From an uncultured Eubacteriales bacterium (GTDB taxonomy: Bacteria; Bacillota; Clostridia; Lachnospirales; Lachnospiraceae), in the NCBI GenBank assembly GCA_949292795.1, contig CASFBR010000003.1, positions 1 to 37,010 of the forward strand: a stretch of 37,010 nucleotides of DNA, given 5' to 3'. Position 1 is the stretch's first letter; each line of letters starts with the position of its first letter. Shown here piece after piece: positions 1 through 13,229 of this stretch. A program made the translations under genes and the position numbers. Below the pieces are notes generated by a model. It was not told the DNA's origin. It was given only the letters and a program-made list of their open reading frames with translations, and did not search any database.

Positions 1-730
1 GCAGCGGCGTGCCGTAGGCTGACGAGTCAGACGGGGCTTCTGCAATATCCGAGAGCAAAAAATCGGAATTTTTCGTCAGATTGATCCATGGCTTTAAGTG
101 ATGCTCAGTGAGAAAGTCAAAAATCGTATCCAGATGGCTGAAATCCAGACGAGTCAGTTCCATAAGTCCGTGCGGAAAAAGCTCAGGGGAGAACATATCC
201 CACATACGGATATACTCAACGCCAAGACTATCTGCCAGCTCTAAAAGCTGTGCCCTCAGATCGGCATGTGAAAGCGGACAGGCACTGCCGACGTTGGCGG
301 CATACAGCCACGATTTTTTATAGGGCCGGGCGTGACTGTCTGAAATTGTCAGTTGGGTCGTCAGGCTGGCCTGACAATCCTCGTTATACTGTGTGCGGTA
401 CGTTTTTCTGTAATCCGATGGGCTGAGCGCGGTACAGCTGCGAAAAATCTTGCTGAATGAGGAACTGTTGGAAAAACCATGCTCCAGCGCGATCTGTGTT
501 AAAGACCGGTCGGTGGCGATCAGGTCTTTTTTTGCGTGTTCAACCCGCAAATGATTGATATAGTCGGAAAAGCTGCACTGGGTCAGTTCAAAAAAATAGC
601 GCGAGTACGTCGCCGGAGACATAAAGTTCTGCCGGGCAATCGTATTTAGATGTAATGGCTGATTATATTGTTCGTTGATCAGATGGATGGAATTTTCCAT
701 GATTTCGGTGATCTGGGTTTTATTTTTCAT
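1..730 (-). CDS. AraC-family regulator with C-terminal GH39-like domain (3' end cut off)
   Basis: Reads leftward off the window edge, so only the first 243 codons are visible. The start is the ATG at 730, preceded by GGAGG at about 737-742. Residues ~10-110 form an AraC/XylS double helix-turn-helix: the first HTH lies near 'LNTIARQNFMSPATYSRYF' and the second near 'SLTQIALEHGFSNSSSFSKI', ending in the usual 'SPSDYRKTYR'. From about residue 120 the sequence resembles the (beta/alpha)8 glycoside-hydrolase-39-like domain found in some Clostridia AraC proteins ('GVEYIRMWDMFS', then 'FDFLTEHHLKPWINL'). Unlike the usual members, no N-terminal cupin sensor precedes the HTH, so ligand sensing, if any, would fall to the GH39-like part. 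It is divergent from the solute-binding protein gene at 1038, a plausible but unproven target. The AraC call is secure; the GH39 call is moderately so. Confidence 0.85.
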   Translation of the reverse strand, partial: MKNKTQITEIMENSIHLINEQYNQPLHLNTIARQNFMSPATYSRYFFELTQCSFSDYINHLRVEHAKKDLIATDRSLTQIALEHGFSNSSSFSKIFRSCTALSPSDYRKTYRTQYNEDCQASLTTQLTISDSHARPYKKSWLYAANVGSACPLSHADLRAQLLELADSLGVEYIRMWDMFSPELFPHGLMELTRLDFSHLDTIFDFLTEHHLKPWINLTKNSDFLLSDIAEAPSDSSAYGTPL

Positions 731-9120: not shown

Positions 9121-9792
9121 ATGAACTATGAAATTTTTTGCGAAGAAAGCAGCGTTATCGGAATTTATGATTATATGATGATAAAAAATAAAATCGAAAA
9201 GAGCAATGGTTACCGGGTGAGCTGTCAGGGACTGGTGCGGGGAATTTATTTTAATCAGGATATTAATTACCTTACAGAACGCGTCGGCGGGGGCAGCGCC
9301 AATACGGACCGGTATTCCATCAATATTTATGATAACGACCCGCAGCATATGGTACTTGATAAAAGGAGCAGCCGCGACGGAACGATTTTCAGGCAGCATA
9401 CATATATTTCTCCGGATCAGTGCGAGCGCATGATCCATAAAGATATAAAGTGGATGGCAGACAGTGAGAATCTTTTGTTCCGCGACCTGTATCTCCAGAT
9501 GACGATCAACCAGAAATGGCCGGGGGTTATTGTGGATTATACGCGTCAGGCTTACCGTCTGGCCGGCGGCGATTTCCTTGTTTTTGATACATCGATTCAG
9601 TCCTCCTACGACATTAAACTGGAGGCCATGAACATTGCCGGTCTGGCCGGGAAAGATTTTCATATGGAAAGCCGGCTGGAACCGGGGAAAGTGGTCATGA
9701 CGTACCGCCAGAGTCTTGGTATGCCAAAAATCCTTGCCGGCCTGATGGACCTTAGCGAAAATTACCGCCTGGCCGGGCATGCAGAGGTATAG
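9121..9792 (+). CDS. VTC/polyphosphate polymerase-domain-like protein, probably degenerate
   Basis: A 223-residue protein whose order of motifs follows the VTC (polyphosphate polymerase) tunnel fold: 'GLVRGIYFNQD' (usual YFD segment), 'RYSINIYDND' and 'MVLDKRS' (usual R-K-R and LE-K strands), 'VIVDYTRQAYR' (the well-kept YxR element), 'FLVFDTSI' (usual RITFD) and 'VVMTYRQSLGMPKIL' (usual EVKY...P). Several basic or acidic tunnel residues of active enzymes are replaced (R of RITFD, E and K of EVK), so catalysis is doubtful. Such proteins normally sit beside DUF4956 or CotH genes; none is here. The ATG at 9121 has AGGAGG about 12 nt upstream; a longer frame to 8959 has no ribosome binding site. 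Family call is moderate. Confidence 0.6.
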   Translation: MNYEIFCEESSVIGIYDYMMIKNKIEKSNGYRVSCQGLVRGIYFNQDINYLTERVGGGSANTDRYSINIYDNDPQHMVLDKRSSRDGTIFRQHTYISPDQCERMIHKDIKWMADSENLLFRDLYLQMTINQKWPGVIVDYTRQAYRLAGGDFLVFDTSIQSSYDIKLEAMNIAGLAGKDFHMESRLEPGKVVMTYRQSLGMPKILAGLMDLSENYRLAGHAEV

Positions 9793-9818: not shown

Positions 9819-9898
9819 GTCTTTAAAAAGACAACTTTCATATTCTGAAAGCAATTTCATTGAAAGAAATTTACCTGACGATTTTGGAGTGCTATAAT
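9819..9898 (+). promoter_or_regulatory. Promoter and dyad operator-like sites of the C-glycoside deglycosidase operon
   Basis: A good promoter, TTTACC (9870-9875), 17-bp spacer, TATAAT (9893-9898), places the transcript start shortly before the AAGGAGG of the first gene. Just upstream are two related dyads, CTTTCA (9835-9840) / TGAAAG (9846-9851) and TTTCA (9855-9859) / TGAAA (9861-9865), and a near-palindrome around GTCTTTAAAAAGAC (from 9819). The dyads abut the -35, as activator or repressor sites do; the binding protein is unknown. Confidence 0.6.
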
Positions 9899-9927: not shown

Positions 9928-10383
9928 ATGTTTGACCAGTATTTAATCAGAAAAGACAGTCTTTACAACGTTGTAGAAGACGGCAAGGTAACCGGATTTA
10001 AATTTGCAGTCAGAATCGCTGATTACAGAGGCTGCTTCTTATCTCTGCATAACGGCTATTATATTAACTGTGATGGGGTGGAATATCCAAGAGAGCTTCA
10101 GAGATTTGAGATCAACGGCAAAGCTCCGAGAGATTTTGAAGAAATAAAGACCTGTGTATGGGAACACTGGAATTACGATGATGAGGGATGGGTTTACGTT
10201 ACAAAGGAAGGCGGCCTTGCTCCTGGAAAGCATGTGATTGGGCTGCAGCAGTCGATTCTCGCTCAGTATGGCTATATGCCATGGGACGAAGAATGGGTGA
10301 AGAACCCGCCGGTACCTGGCAGCGGCGCAGGCTCCGGAAAGACAGCAGCTATTTGTCAGTTTGAATTGGAACTTCAGGAATAA
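9928..10383 (+). CDS. C-glycoside deglycosidase beta subunit (DUF6379 type), copy 1
   Basis: A 151-residue cytoplasmic beta-rich protein. It matches the small beta subunit (DUF6379) of C-glycoside deglycosidases, known from CarC, DfgB and the Dgp system, which pairs with a TIM-barrel alpha subunit to cleave the C-C bond of 3-keto C-glycosides such as those derived from puerarin or isoorientin. Recognisable stretches are 'NVVEDGKVTGFKFAVRI', 'RGCFLSLHNGYYI', 'CVWEHWNYDDEGW' and 'GLQQSILAQYGYMPWDEEW'. The small subunit supplies part of the active-site entrance in the described complexes. AAGGAGG lies 8-10 nt before the ATG. The gene is 17 nt upstream of its alpha partner, and a 95%-identical copy begins at 11560. 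Exact substrate unknown. Confidence 0.85.
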   Translation: MFDQYLIRKDSLYNVVEDGKVTGFKFAVRIADYRGCFLSLHNGYYINCDGVEYPRELQRFEINGKAPRDFEEIKTCVWEHWNYDDEGWVYVTKEGGLAPGKHVIGLQQSILAQYGYMPWDEEWVKNPPVPGSGAGSGKTAAICQFELELQE

Positions 10384-10400
10384 GGTAAGGAGGATTTGTT

Positions 10401-11456
10401 ATGGGTATCAAAAGAGGCGTATCGCTGTACAGCTATCAGCAGGCACAGTTTTTCAAAAAGATGGACTGGAAGGATATGATCCGCGAGGTTCACGATAACT
10501 TAAAGACCGATGGTATTGAGATCATTGATGAAGCAACGATCCGTGACTATCCGTTCCCGTCTGAACAGTTTATTTATGATTTCAGAGAGTATATGGCACG
10601 CTATAATATGAAGGCTGTGACGATGGATATTTATCTGGATGTTCATCAGTTCCGCGATCATGTTATGAATTACCGCGAGGCCGCAGAGCGCCTGAAAAAT
10701 GATATTCGTCTTGCCGCAAAGCTTGGCTTTGCCAATGTTCGTCCGCTCTGCCTTGTTCCGATTGAGGTTATTGAGATGGCGCTTCCTGTGGCTGAGGAAT
10801 GTAATGTGCGTATGGGTAAAGAAATCCATGCACCTCTGCCGATTTTTAAGGGCAATAAGCAGCAGCCAAAGCATGGTATGGCAGCAGCTTTGGATTTCAG
10901 AATGGCAGAGCAGATTCTTGAGCTTGCAGACAAGACAGGCAGCAAGCATGTCGGTCTTGTACCGGACTTTGGTATTTTCCAGCATCATCCGTCTCAGGTG
11001 GCGATCGACTATGCGAAACGTCATGCGAAAAATCCGGAGGTTATTGACTGGATTCTTGAAAATTCCAAAGATTATACGCTGGATGAAATGCCGGTTGTAC
11101 TTGATGAGAAGTTCCCGAATCACGGACTTGACGCAGGTACAGTAGAGCGCATGAGCCTCCATGAGATGTCCGGAGACCCGGAGGACCTTAAGAAGATTAT
11201 TCCATATATTGTCAGCATGCACGGTAAGTTCTATCAGATGACCGAAATCCCCGGCAAGCCTGGTCAGTATGAAGATAAGTCCATTGATTATGAAACACCG
11301 ATGCGTGTTCTGCGCGAGAATGGCTTTGAGGGCTATATTGATTCCGAATATGAAGGCCAGAGAGATCAGCAGGATATGGGCTATGAAAAGCTTCCTGACG
11401 AAGTGGAGGAGGTTCGCCGCCATCACGAGATGCTCAAACGCCTGAGCGAAGGCTGA
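10401..11456 (+). CDS. C-glycoside deglycosidase alpha subunit (TIM barrel, sugar phosphate isomerase/epimerase-like), copy 1
   Basis: A 351-residue (beta/alpha)8 protein of the xylose-isomerase-like / sugar phosphate isomerase-epimerase superfamily. Its position directly after the DUF6379 gene identifies it as the catalytic alpha subunit of a CarB/DfgA-type C-glycoside deglycosidase. Likely divalent-metal ligands, by position in the barrel, are Glu141 (KEIHAP), Asp189 (LVPDFG), His274 (SMHGKFY) and Glu316 (DSEYEG); His143 is a candidate acid-base residue (inference from the fold). The complex acts on a 3-oxo C-glycoside, releasing the aglycone by a beta-elimination-like C-C cleavage. AAGGAGG lies 9 nt before the ATG. 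Other isomerase-like functions remain possible until tested, but the pairing with DUF6379 is diagnostic. Confidence 0.85.
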   Translation: MGIKRGVSLYSYQQAQFFKKMDWKDMIREVHDNLKTDGIEIIDEATIRDYPFPSEQFIYDFREYMARYNMKAVTMDIYLDVHQFRDHVMNYREAAERLKNDIRLAAKLGFANVRPLCLVPIEVIEMALPVAEECNVRMGKEIHAPLPIFKGNKQQPKHGMAAALDFRMAEQILELADKTGSKHVGLVPDFGIFQHHPSQVAIDYAKRHAKNPEVIDWILENSKDYTLDEMPVVLDEKFPNHGLDAGTVERMSLHEMSGDPEDLKKIIPYIVSMHGKFYQMTEIPGKPGQYEDKSIDYETPMRVLRENGFEGYIDSEYEGQRDQQDMGYEKLPDEVEEVRRHHEMLKRLSEG

Positions 11457-11504
11457 TACATACTTACAGCAGGCAGAAGGATATTTTTGTGGATAAAAAT
11501 ATAT

Positions 11505-11535
11505 AAGGTCAAAGCCTTAAGCGGGCTTTGGCCTT
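11505..11535 (+). other. Stem-loop between the two deglycosidase gene pairs
   Basis: 12-bp stem AAGGTCAAAGCC (11505-11516) / GGCTTTGGCCTT (11524-11535) with one G-T pair and a 7-nt loop, preceded by an AT-only dyad ATATTTTT (11481-11488) / AAAAATAT (11495-11502). There is no T-run after the stem, so it looks like a transcript-stability or processing element, or a leaky attenuator, inside one operon. No promoter is evident in this 103-bp gap. Confidence 0.55.
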
Positions 11536-11559
11536 GATAAAAATAAGGGGGTATTTTTT

Positions 11560-12018
11560 ATGTTTGACCAGTATCTCATCCGAAAGGACAGCCTTCATAA
11601 TGTAGTGGAGGACGGCAAGGTTACGGGGTTTAAATTTGCCGTGCGCATCGCAGATTACAGAGGCTGCTTTTTATCACTGCACAATGGCTACTATATCAAC
11701 TGTGACGGCGTAGAATATCCGAAGGATCTTCAGCGCTTTGAGATCAACGGAAAGCCGCCCAGAACCTTTGACGAGATTAAGACCTGTGTGTGGGAGCACT
11801 GGAATTATGACGATGAAGGATGGGTTTATGTAACCAAAGAAGGCGGACTGGCACCAGGTAAGCATGTAATCGGACTTCAGCAGTCCATTCTCGCACAGTA
11901 CGGCTATATGCCATGGGACGAAGAATGGGTGAAGAATCCGCCGGTACCTGGAAGCGGCGCAGGTTCAGGAAAAACCGCAGTTATTTGCCAGTTTGAGCTG
12001 GAGCTTCAGAACGATTAA
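11560..12018 (+). CDS. C-glycoside deglycosidase beta subunit (DUF6379 type), copy 2
   Basis: A 152-residue paralogue of the protein at 9928. By eye it differs at seven positions in the first 150 residues (13, 55, 56, 66, 69, 71 and 141) and at the C-terminal tip (ND instead of E), so about 95% identity. The synonymous codons differ more than the protein does, which points to purifying selection after an older duplication, or recombination followed by drift. AAGGGGG lies about 10 nt before the ATG. The gene is followed 14 nt later by its own alpha subunit. Function as for copy 1. Confidence 0.85.
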   Translation: MFDQYLIRKDSLHNVVEDGKVTGFKFAVRIADYRGCFLSLHNGYYINCDGVEYPKDLQRFEINGKPPRTFDEIKTCVWEHWNYDDEGWVYVTKEGGLAPGKHVIGLQQSILAQYGYMPWDEEWVKNPPVPGSGAGSGKTAVICQFELELQND

Positions 12019-12032
12019 GGGGGTAATTGATT

Positions 12033-13091
12033 ATGGCCATTAAACGAGGTGTATCATTATATAGTTATCAGCAGGCACAGTTTTTTAAGCAGATGGACTG
12101 GAAGGCTATGATCCGTGAAGTCCGGGAGCATCTTGGAACGGACGGTATTGAGATCATTGACGAGGCGACGATCCGTGATTATCCATTCCCGTCTGAACAG
12201 TTTATTTATGATTTCAGAGAATATATGGCCCGCTATAACATGAAGGCTGTAACCATGGATATTTATATGGATGTTCATCAGTTCCGCGACCATGTGATGA
12301 ATATCCAGGAGGTTGCCGAGCGGCTTAAAAATGATATTCGTCTCGCAGCCAAGCTCGGCTTTGCCAATGTGCGCCCGCTCTGTGCAGTTCCGATTGAGGC
12401 TATTGAGCTTGCTCTGCCGACAGCTGAGAAATATAACGTGCGTATGGGTAAAGAAATTCATGCGCCAATGCCCATCAAACCGAGAAAATATAATGAGGAA
12501 AACCGCGGCATGCGCCGGACGATGGATTTCCGTATGGCTGAGCAGATACTTGAGCTGGCAGACCGTACGGGCAGCAAGCATGTCGGCCTTGTACCGGACT
12601 TTGGTATTTTCCAGCATTCTCCGTCTCAGGTGGCAATCGACTATGCGAAACGTCATGCAAAGAAGCCGGAGGCTGTGGATTTTATCCGTGAAAACTGCAC
12701 CTCCTACACAAAGGATGAGATGGTCAGAGTTGTCAATGAAAAATATCCCGACAGCGGCCTGACTGAAATGACGGTTGAGCAGATGTGGCTGCACCGCTCC
12801 TGCGCAGAACCGGAGGATTTGATCGATATTATCCCGTACATTGTAAGTATGCACGGCAAGTTCTATCAGATGACAGAGATTCCTGGAAAGCCGGGACAGT
12901 ATGAGGATAAGTCCATCGACTATGAAAATCCGATTCGTATTTTGCGTGAGAATGGCTTTGATGGTTATATTGATTCAGAATATGAGGGTCAGAGAAGCCA
13001 GCAGGATATGGGCTATGAGAATCTGCCCAATGAGATCGAAGAGGTTCGCCGTCATCATGAGATGTTAAAACGTCTCAGCGGTGAAGCTTAA
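12033..13091 (+). CDS. C-glycoside deglycosidase alpha subunit (TIM barrel), copy 2
   Basis: A 352-residue paralogue of the alpha subunit at 10401, about 79% identical (72 differences in 351 positions, counted by eye). All presumed metal ligands are kept (the KEIHAP Glu, LVPDFG Asp, SMHGKFY His and DSEYEG Glu). The changes cluster in residues ~146-164 and ~211-262, while residues 41-60, 165-210 and 265-300 are nearly unchanged. Those variable segments are likely loops that shape the substrate pocket (inference). The start is ATG 12033, with GGGGG 9 nt upstream; a TTG two codons earlier is less likely. A strong hairpin follows at 13149-13196, closing the four-gene array. Confidence 0.85.
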   Translation: MAIKRGVSLYSYQQAQFFKQMDWKAMIREVREHLGTDGIEIIDEATIRDYPFPSEQFIYDFREYMARYNMKAVTMDIYMDVHQFRDHVMNIQEVAERLKNDIRLAAKLGFANVRPLCAVPIEAIELALPTAEKYNVRMGKEIHAPMPIKPRKYNEENRGMRRTMDFRMAEQILELADRTGSKHVGLVPDFGIFQHSPSQVAIDYAKRHAKKPEAVDFIRENCTSYTKDEMVRVVNEKYPDSGLTEMTVEQMWLHRSCAEPEDLIDIIPYIVSMHGKFYQMTEIPGKPGQYEDKSIDYENPIRILRENGFDGYIDSEYEGQRSQQDMGYENLPNEIEEVRRHHEMLKRLSGEA

Positions 13092-13148
13092 GCCAGCCTG
13101 GATGCCAAAAAGGCGGCCCTGGCAGAAAAAAACACTAAATGATTATAT

Positions 13149-13196
13149 TATACCCCGGAAATCGCCGGCAGTACATGCGGCGATTTCCGGGGTATA
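13149..13196. terminator. Very strong perfect hairpin after the deglycosidase array
   Basis: A 19-bp perfect stem (13149-13167 / 13178-13196; core CCCCGGAAATCGCCG) with a 10-nt loop. There is no T-run immediately after it on either strand, so it may be a terminator with a poor tail, an mRNA 3' end stabiliser, or the core of a small inserted element. Flanking it is a 10-bp inverted repeat AACACTAAAT (13131-13140) / ATTTAGTGTT (13245-13254). Confidence 0.65.
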
Positions 13197-13229
13197 GTCG
13201 TTTATGGACGGCTGCCCGTGACATAAATG

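Follow-up and report, generated by a model that had tools for sequence, protein, structure and literature searches.

The window described here, a 37,010-nucleotide stretch of contig CASFBR010000003.1 from a draft Catenibacillus (Lachnospiraceae) genome, contains a doubled beta-alpha array of C-glycoside deglycosidase (CGD) genes at positions 9928-13091. The array is real, intact and conserved; it is composed of two CGD beta-alpha pairs, and all four open reading frames (ORFs) are located on the plus strand. In the reading that we favour with moderate confidence, the pairs would form two metal-dependent CGD-type lyases, which use in effect one kind of beta chain, accept different aglycones and rely on a DgpA-type oxidoreductase acting in trans. 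The genus is already known for such chemistry and the array is ordinary in kind; what stands out is the near-identity of both betas, together with the beta-alpha-alpha form of the locus in Catenibacillus scindens.

The doubled array and its family assignment

The array is organized as follows.

9928..10383, plus strand: beta1, 151 residues, CGD beta subunit of family PF19906 (DUF6379), Pfam 127.2 bits
10401..11456, plus strand: alpha1, 351 residues, CGD alpha subunit, TIM barrel with a four-helix lid (PDB and Foldseek searches)
11457..11559, plus strand: spacer separating the two units and containing an RNA hairpin (fold z -3.27)
11560..12018, plus strand: beta2, 152 residues, CGD beta subunit, Pfam 128.9 bits, 95% identical to beta1
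12033..13091, plus strand: alpha2, 352 residues from the ATG, CGD alpha subunit, PF01261 50.1 bits (reading from 12027)

The ORFs are separated by 17, 103 and 14 bases, with alpha2 counted from its ATG. Read from the TTG, the alpha2 ORF (12027-13091) is 354 residues in length; the ATG at 12033, which is located behind AAGGGGG, is the likelier start. The proteins beta1 and beta2 are identical at 143 of 151 residues, yet only 82.6% of their bases agree, and 62 of the 143 shared residues are encoded by different codons. None of the eight differing positions is within the conserved segment 107-137. Alpha1 and alpha2 are identical at 280 of 351 residues (80%) and at 76.9% of bases. This divergence of proteins and bases between the copies indicates an old duplication, not an assembly echo; recent duplication or gene conversion is ruled out by the differing beta codons and by the saturated synonymous divergence (dS) of the paralogues. 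The locus recurs in C. scindens DSM 106146 between the same flanking genes, which anchors the array as real. The doubling, order and spacing of the four ORFs are thus as the initial annotation, made from the letters alone, had claimed.

Both small proteins matched PF19906 (CGDB, CGD beta subunit; cut-off 27.6 bits), with E-values of 3.2e-37 for beta1 and 9.5e-38 for beta2. The larger ones matched the TIM-barrel family PF01261 (AP_endonuc_2), with E-values of 8.5e-12 for alpha1 and 3.9e-13 for alpha2. When beta1 was compared to PDB sequences with phmmer, CGD chains accounted for eight of the nine matches at E<=1, the top one being the DUF6379 chain 9m3a_B (5e-14). For alpha1, all eight matches at E<=0.1 are CGD chains, led by 8qvc_A (3.8e-45); the PDB sequence search was made with alpha1 only, and alpha2 is assigned to the CGDs through its 80% identity to alpha1. 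The AlphaFold2 model of alpha1, built from a 24-row alignment, has a mean pLDDT (predicted local distance difference test) of 93.9. Its Foldseek ranks 1-16 are all solved CGD alpha chains or fusions (E 7.8e-29 to 1.2e-19); isomerases and epimerases come after the CGDs, beginning with one xylose-isomerase-like protein at 1.1e-11. Helices 199-208, 212-224, 230-237 and 245-251 of the model fit the four-helix lid of PuCGD and AgCGD2 (PMC8563793). In the Foldseek search with the beta1 model, CGD beta chains or CGD fusions made up all 17 matches at E<=0.001; the small proteins gave no best match outside DUF6379. As in CGDs, the alpha and beta genes adjoin in both pairs. The pairing of DUF6379 with a TIM barrel and the CGD fold proposed by the initial annotation were therefore borne out; by sequence, and for alpha1 and beta1 also by predicted fold, both pairs are CGD-family enzymes, with predicted activity and substrates. 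Transfer of substrates from the Car, Dfg and Dgp systems was rejected, owing to the 24-32% identity of alpha1 to the solved CGDs.

AgCGD2 holds its manganese through E147, D179, H269, K271 and E305, and its catalytic residues are H149 and E307 (PMC8563793). The alpha1 counterparts are E141, D189, H274, K276 and E316 for the metal, and H143 and E318 for catalysis; all of them are present in alpha2 too. These roles were set by motif order and by PDB sequence alignments of alpha1, in which AgCGD2 was not printed. The presumed metal ligands were said to be conserved, and the motifs E141-x-H143, D189, H274-x-K276 and E316-x-E318 are indeed invariant across the 24 aligned alphas. Among these 24 are nine of the 14 alphas visible in the genome (alpha1, alpha2 and seven further paralogues); the other five (L010, L021 and three fusions) were left out. 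Residue mapping to the AgCGD2 pocket was also tried via the PDB searches; as AgCGD2 never appeared in the printed alignments, no such mapping is claimed.

The Catenibacillus scindens locus and the divergence of the two alphas

C. scindens DSM 106146 is the closest named relative with respect to alpha1. Its locus contains, in order, one MocR-like regulator, one VTC-like gene, beta, alpha1, alpha2, one FMN-reductase-like gene and DUF5717; the window has the same flanks around beta1, alpha1, beta2 and alpha2, without the FMN-reductase gene. The C. scindens beta is 99% identical to beta1, and its alphas are 93% and 92% identical to alpha1 and alpha2, respectively. The 151-base gap between the C. 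scindens alphas gave only chance-level beta matches (best E 0.26 with blastn, none with tblastn), and the C. scindens beta that comes next in similarity (72%) is paired with its own alpha. Alpha2 of C. scindens is therefore without any cognate neighbour except the single beta. The initial annotation had proposed two isozymes or mixed complexes; the doubling stands, whereas the single beta beside both alphas in C. scindens makes it less likely that each alpha has a beta of its own. Mixed complexes are supported as a possibility.

Directly upstream of the array, the gene at 9121-9792 matched a VTC domain weakly (PF09359; 22.0 bits, below the cut-off of 23). It keeps its place in C. scindens, where the gene has no Pfam match at 0.001 and owes its name to its resemblance to the gene at 9121-9792. 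The FMN_red-type gene sits between alpha2 and DUF5717 in C. scindens; the window lacks it at this position.

The nonsynonymous divergence (dN) of the alphas is 0.147 between the paralogues, compared to 0.041 (alpha1) and 0.048 (alpha2) between the orthologues of the two genomes; the alpha1/alpha2 split is therefore older than the two species. The orthologue dS values of 1.5 and 2.2 are at or beyond saturation, and both alphas are under purifying selection. Beta1 and beta2 differ at 17.4% of bases, compared to 13.7% for beta1 and the C. scindens beta, which leans to beta2 loss in C. scindens. These three betas grouped against those of other genera with support of 93 (codon positions 1+2) or 68 (protein). 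Rooting of the duplication by alpha and beta trees was abandoned, as its order relative to other genera was not settled (deciding nodes 51-84). Alpha2 is probably the derived copy; in relative-rate tests its branch was longer against A. ruminis, G366, G324 and L048 (chi2 of 7.7, 8.6, 4.6 and 11.3, respectively). These tests used 11 of the 15 outgroup alphas, leaving out G292 (a duplicate), G300, L051 and G250.

Forty-three alpha1/alpha2 differences are fixed in both species, with one residue in each alpha1 and another in each alpha2. Twelve are located in a 24-residue loop (146-169), 16 in the 64-residue lid (194-257) and 15 in the remaining 263 residues; loop and lid thus hold 28 of the 43 in 88 of 351 residues. 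The loop is the insertion after EIHAP; it lies beside the presumed catalytic His, at the predicted active-site mouth. The 51 orthologue differences are distributed otherwise (loop 3, lid 13, others 35), and Fisher's test against the fixed ones gave an odds ratio of 4.1 (p 0.0017). The region borders were first drawn after seeing the differences (odds ratio 4.5), then redrawn from PDB alignment gaps, which gave the value of 4.1. When the 43 differences were placed by variability weights from 15 other alphas, two of them identical, the probability of at least 28 in loop and lid was 0.00065, and that of one 20-residue window as dense as 145-164 was 0.0017. Between the two species, the 24 residues of the alpha2 loop are unchanged. 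Because alpha1 and alpha2 differ mainly in loop and lid, the two complexes most likely differ in the aglycones that they accept. With near-identical betas and two alphas that carry two-thirds of their 43 differences in these two regions, the locus is a natural experiment on aglycone choice.

Expression, oxidoreductase partner and competing explanations

Three features surround the array.

9835..9851, plus strand: inverted repeat CTTTCA-TATTC-TGAAAG, ahead of the promoter-like site and unchanged in C. scindens (L044 alignment)
9870..9898, plus strand: promoter-like site TTTACC-17-TATAAT, whose second hexamer is preceded by TG; also present ahead of the C. scindens array
13092..13200, plus strand: strong hairpin after alpha2 (fold z -7.65)

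Promoter-like sites are no commoner in the region than in shuffled sequences (10 versus 9.6); the one at 9870..9898 is favoured solely because it is conserved in C. scindens and well placed. The inverted repeat is a possible operator. The scan found no plus-strand promoter-like site in the spacer between alpha1 and beta2, and no terminator-like site with a T run between the units; hairpins are present there, with z of -3.3 here and -3.1 in C. scindens. Like the spacer, 13092..13200 has no terminator-like site with a T run in the scan, and its hairpin possibly marks the end of the transcription unit. Judged from these signals, it is plausible that the four genes lie on one transcript.

The array contains no oxidoreductase gene, and none of the 12 GFO_IDH_MocA matches of the genome shares its contig with any of the 16 CGD betas. 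By the known pathway, the array therefore cannot act alone on any C-glycoside. A DgpA-type C3 oxidoreductase gene, as in Dgp- and Dfg-type pathways, is present in the genome outside the operon: C85:57288-58412 scored 557 bits against 7xr9, which we take to be DgpA of strain PUE, over residues 1-345 of the 351 searched. The C85 oxidoreductase is 65-73% identical to the gene adjoining a window-type pair in L052, L054, L067 and L068, and it is conserved at 90-94% in three other Catenibacillus genomes. A Gfo/Idh/MocA-like gene is located near the pair at nine of the 13 other window-type loci, as identified by Pfam (L045, L046, L047 and L050) or by similarity (L052, L054, L067, L068 and L070). The C85 gene product is likely the 3-oxidising partner, which would make the 3-oxo substrate in trans, and as such it can be tested.

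In the favoured reading, the DgpA-type enzyme encoded elsewhere would oxidise the sugar of the glycoside at C3, and the 3-oxo-glycoside would bind at the alpha/beta interface. There, one Mn-type ion, held by E141, D189, H274, K276 and E316, and the base H143, together with E318, would bring about beta-elimination and so free the aglycone. Being near-identical proteins, beta1 and beta2 would probably be interchangeable. One kind of beta may serve two alphas, since beta1 and beta2 are 95% identical and C. scindens keeps both alphas with one beta. The wider picture is that of a combinatorial CGD: one conserved beta, two alphas whose loop and lid diverged for different aglycones, beta-alpha-alpha in C. 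scindens and beta-alpha-beta-alpha here, in a genome with 16 CGDs and with oxidoreductases in trans. It is more tentative, and taken as a whole we lean slightly against it.

Several observations weigh against the reading of two lyases with one kind of beta and different aglycones. Besides the missing oxidoreductase, alpha1 is 24-32% identical to the solved CGDs in structure alignments, and no activity data for the clade of alpha1 and alpha2 were found in the literature. Confidence in the model of beta1 on its own is modest (pLDDT 72.5), as one might expect when a chain is modelled apart from its partner. Across the clade as a whole, loop and lid are variable (mean entropy of 1.20 and 1.27, versus 0.54 elsewhere), so some of the clustering reflects this general variability. 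When betas were exchanged between PuCGD and EuCGD, no complexes formed (PMC8563793); the betas in those swaps are far more diverged than beta1 and beta2. As to the history, the alpha and beta trees conflict, at the same deciding nodes, on beta2 loss in C. scindens versus gain here. The relative-rate test was not significant with seven of the 11 outgroups, among them Lapin and L049, which lean the opposite way.

The pairs might instead be CGD-fold lyases that naturally act on 3-oxo O-glycosides or other 3-oxo sugars. One CGD-type enzyme eliminates both 3-keto O- and C-glucosides, with C-cleavage requiring finely tuned aglycone contacts (PMC10628242), and one DgpA-family enzyme oxidises O-glycosides as well (PMC11239390); the clade is also remote from the solved CGDs. 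However, the genus is known for C-deglycosylation (PMC11170127), and PuCGD lost C-C cleavage without its lid (PMC8563793), a lid that is predicted here as four helices; we therefore regard this explanation as rather unlikely. It is improbable that the duplication merely provides more enzyme, with alpha1 and alpha2 functionally equal. Near-identical beta proteins and the single conserved promoter-like site for both units would fit a dose effect, but the excess of fixed alpha differences in loop and lid goes beyond both the orthologue and the variability controls, and the alpha2 loop is unchanged between species.

Ordinary sugar isomerases or epimerases with one accessory protein would agree with PF01261, which is a general xylose-isomerase-like family, and with the isomerases and epimerases that come next in the structure ranking. 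Such a role is very unlikely, however: the E-value rises by about eight orders of magnitude from the last CGD to the first other protein, each alpha adjoins a PF19906 partner, and both the E-x-E motif and the lysine among the ligands are retained. We give hardly any credence to alpha2/beta2 as a decaying or non-functional copy: alpha2 is probably more derived and C. scindens has no beta2, yet the frames are intact, the ligands are kept, and alpha2 has a dN of 0.048 with saturated dS against its orthologue.

CGD repertoire and comparison with known systems

Few characterised gut bacteria cut the C-C glycosidic bonds of dietary plant compounds (PMC11170127). The genome of the window (2.89 Mb, 95% complete, 3.3% contamination, 171 contigs) has 16 PF19906 genes over the cut-off, the highest count in the genome samples; the array accounts for two. 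Among the others, nine are in further alpha-beta pairs, three are fused to an alpha and two are at contig ends, where the alpha would fall beyond the contig. In the family sample, 26 of 299 genomes (this one included) have a PF19906 match, with top counts of 8 and 6 after the 16 here and the 14 of C. scindens; in the phylum sample, there are four of 398, again including this genome. Because C. scindens has 14, foreign contigs in the draft are unlikely to account fully for the 16.

Catenibacillus isolates cleave flavone and xanthone C-glucosides and have several dgpBC clusters with dgpA elsewhere; Goris and Braune (2024) counted four dgpBC in C. scindens and six in C. decagia, with thresholds of 33% identity and 80% coverage (PMC11170127). 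Alpha1-type chains are 25-27% identical to DgpC and DfgA in structure alignments, so the 33% threshold would probably miss them. This suggests that the published counts for the genus are too low.

The tandem is not unique. Of 13 further window-type loci (L045-L054, L067, L068 and L070; L069, equal to L050, was dropped), four have a second CGD adjoining the pair. L054 (genome G110) contains an oxidoreductase, a beta-alpha pair, a fused CGD and a second beta-alpha pair, packed as tightly as the window array; L047, L067 and L068 have two CGD pairs around one oxidoreductase. CGD arrays thus occur repeatedly across the family, in other genera as well. The openly readable literature searched, which excludes subscription papers, gave no account of such a tandem or of a shared beta.

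Natural CGD fusions are of the alpha-beta type in this genome (C136, C19 and C163, corresponding to L016, L018 and L019) and of the beta-alpha type at L054:7441-8928. The genome also encodes full-length close relatives of Eubacterium cellulosolvens DfgA (C26, L010; 510 bits over 290 of 290 residues) and of P581a DgpC1 (C130, L011; 377 bits). FMN_red-type flavoproteins are located near CGD loci at L071:3192-4331 (minus strand) and L050:12005-12964. Genome G300 has three PF19906 genes, at least two of them near a DgpA-like gene. In addition, regulators of about 800 residues that combine an AraC-type helix-turn-helix with a GH39 glycosidase-like domain adjoin CGD genes.

L013:5588-8035, L015:4315-6771, L019:1737-4016 and L021:3738-6158: AraC/GH39 regulators of this genome
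L045, L049, L050 and L068: loci of relatives with AraC/GH39 regulators
Window 1..730, minus strand: similar ORF, partial

In this genome, nine of 19 GH39 matches are on CGD contigs, which make up about 16% of the bases (binomial P 0.0013); two of the 19 are under the cut-off, and the AraC part was checked for only some. These regulators may be glycoside sensors.

Like the window pairs, PuCGD (DgpB-DgpC of strain PUE; PDB 7bvr, 7exz, 7drd and 7xrf) combines an alpha TIM barrel and lid with a small beta, a Mn site and a catalytic His, and it comes from gut Firmicutes. Different from them, its alpha is 25-27% identical to alpha1 in the structure alignment, and its genes share one operon with dgpA (PMC11170127). 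EuCGD (DfgA-DfgB of E. cellulosolvens; PDB 7bvs and 7dre) is also a two-subunit CGD with a metal site, but it has no lid (PMC8563793) and an alpha of 290 residues. Since the genome has a separate close DfgA relative at C26, the window pairs are not the EuCGD counterpart. The CGD of Deinococcus aerius (PDB 8qvc and 8umc) is the top alpha1 match in sequence (3.8e-45) and in structure (template modelling score 0.81, by query length); compared to alpha1, it lacks 16 residues of the insertion after EIHAP and is 32% identical.

AtOGE, an O-glycoside beta-eliminase, shares the Mn site and the beta-elimination of 3-keto-glycosides, and is, going by its description alone, unrelated in sequence (PMC10628242). 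The Catenibacillus relative CAKRHR01 sp934339005 has dfgAB-like genes and one additional dfgA copy (PMC12101588), so there is precedent for unequal numbers of alphas and betas; in contrast to the window, its genes are dispersed, not tandem, and the accessible text states no beta sharing (PMC12101588). The dgpBC clusters of C. scindens and C. decagia belong to the same genus and likewise have several CGD clusters with dgpA apart from dgpBC (PMC11170127). The word tandem does not occur in the accessible text of that report, and its four and six dgpBC compare with PF19906 counts of 14 in C. scindens and 16 in the genome described here.

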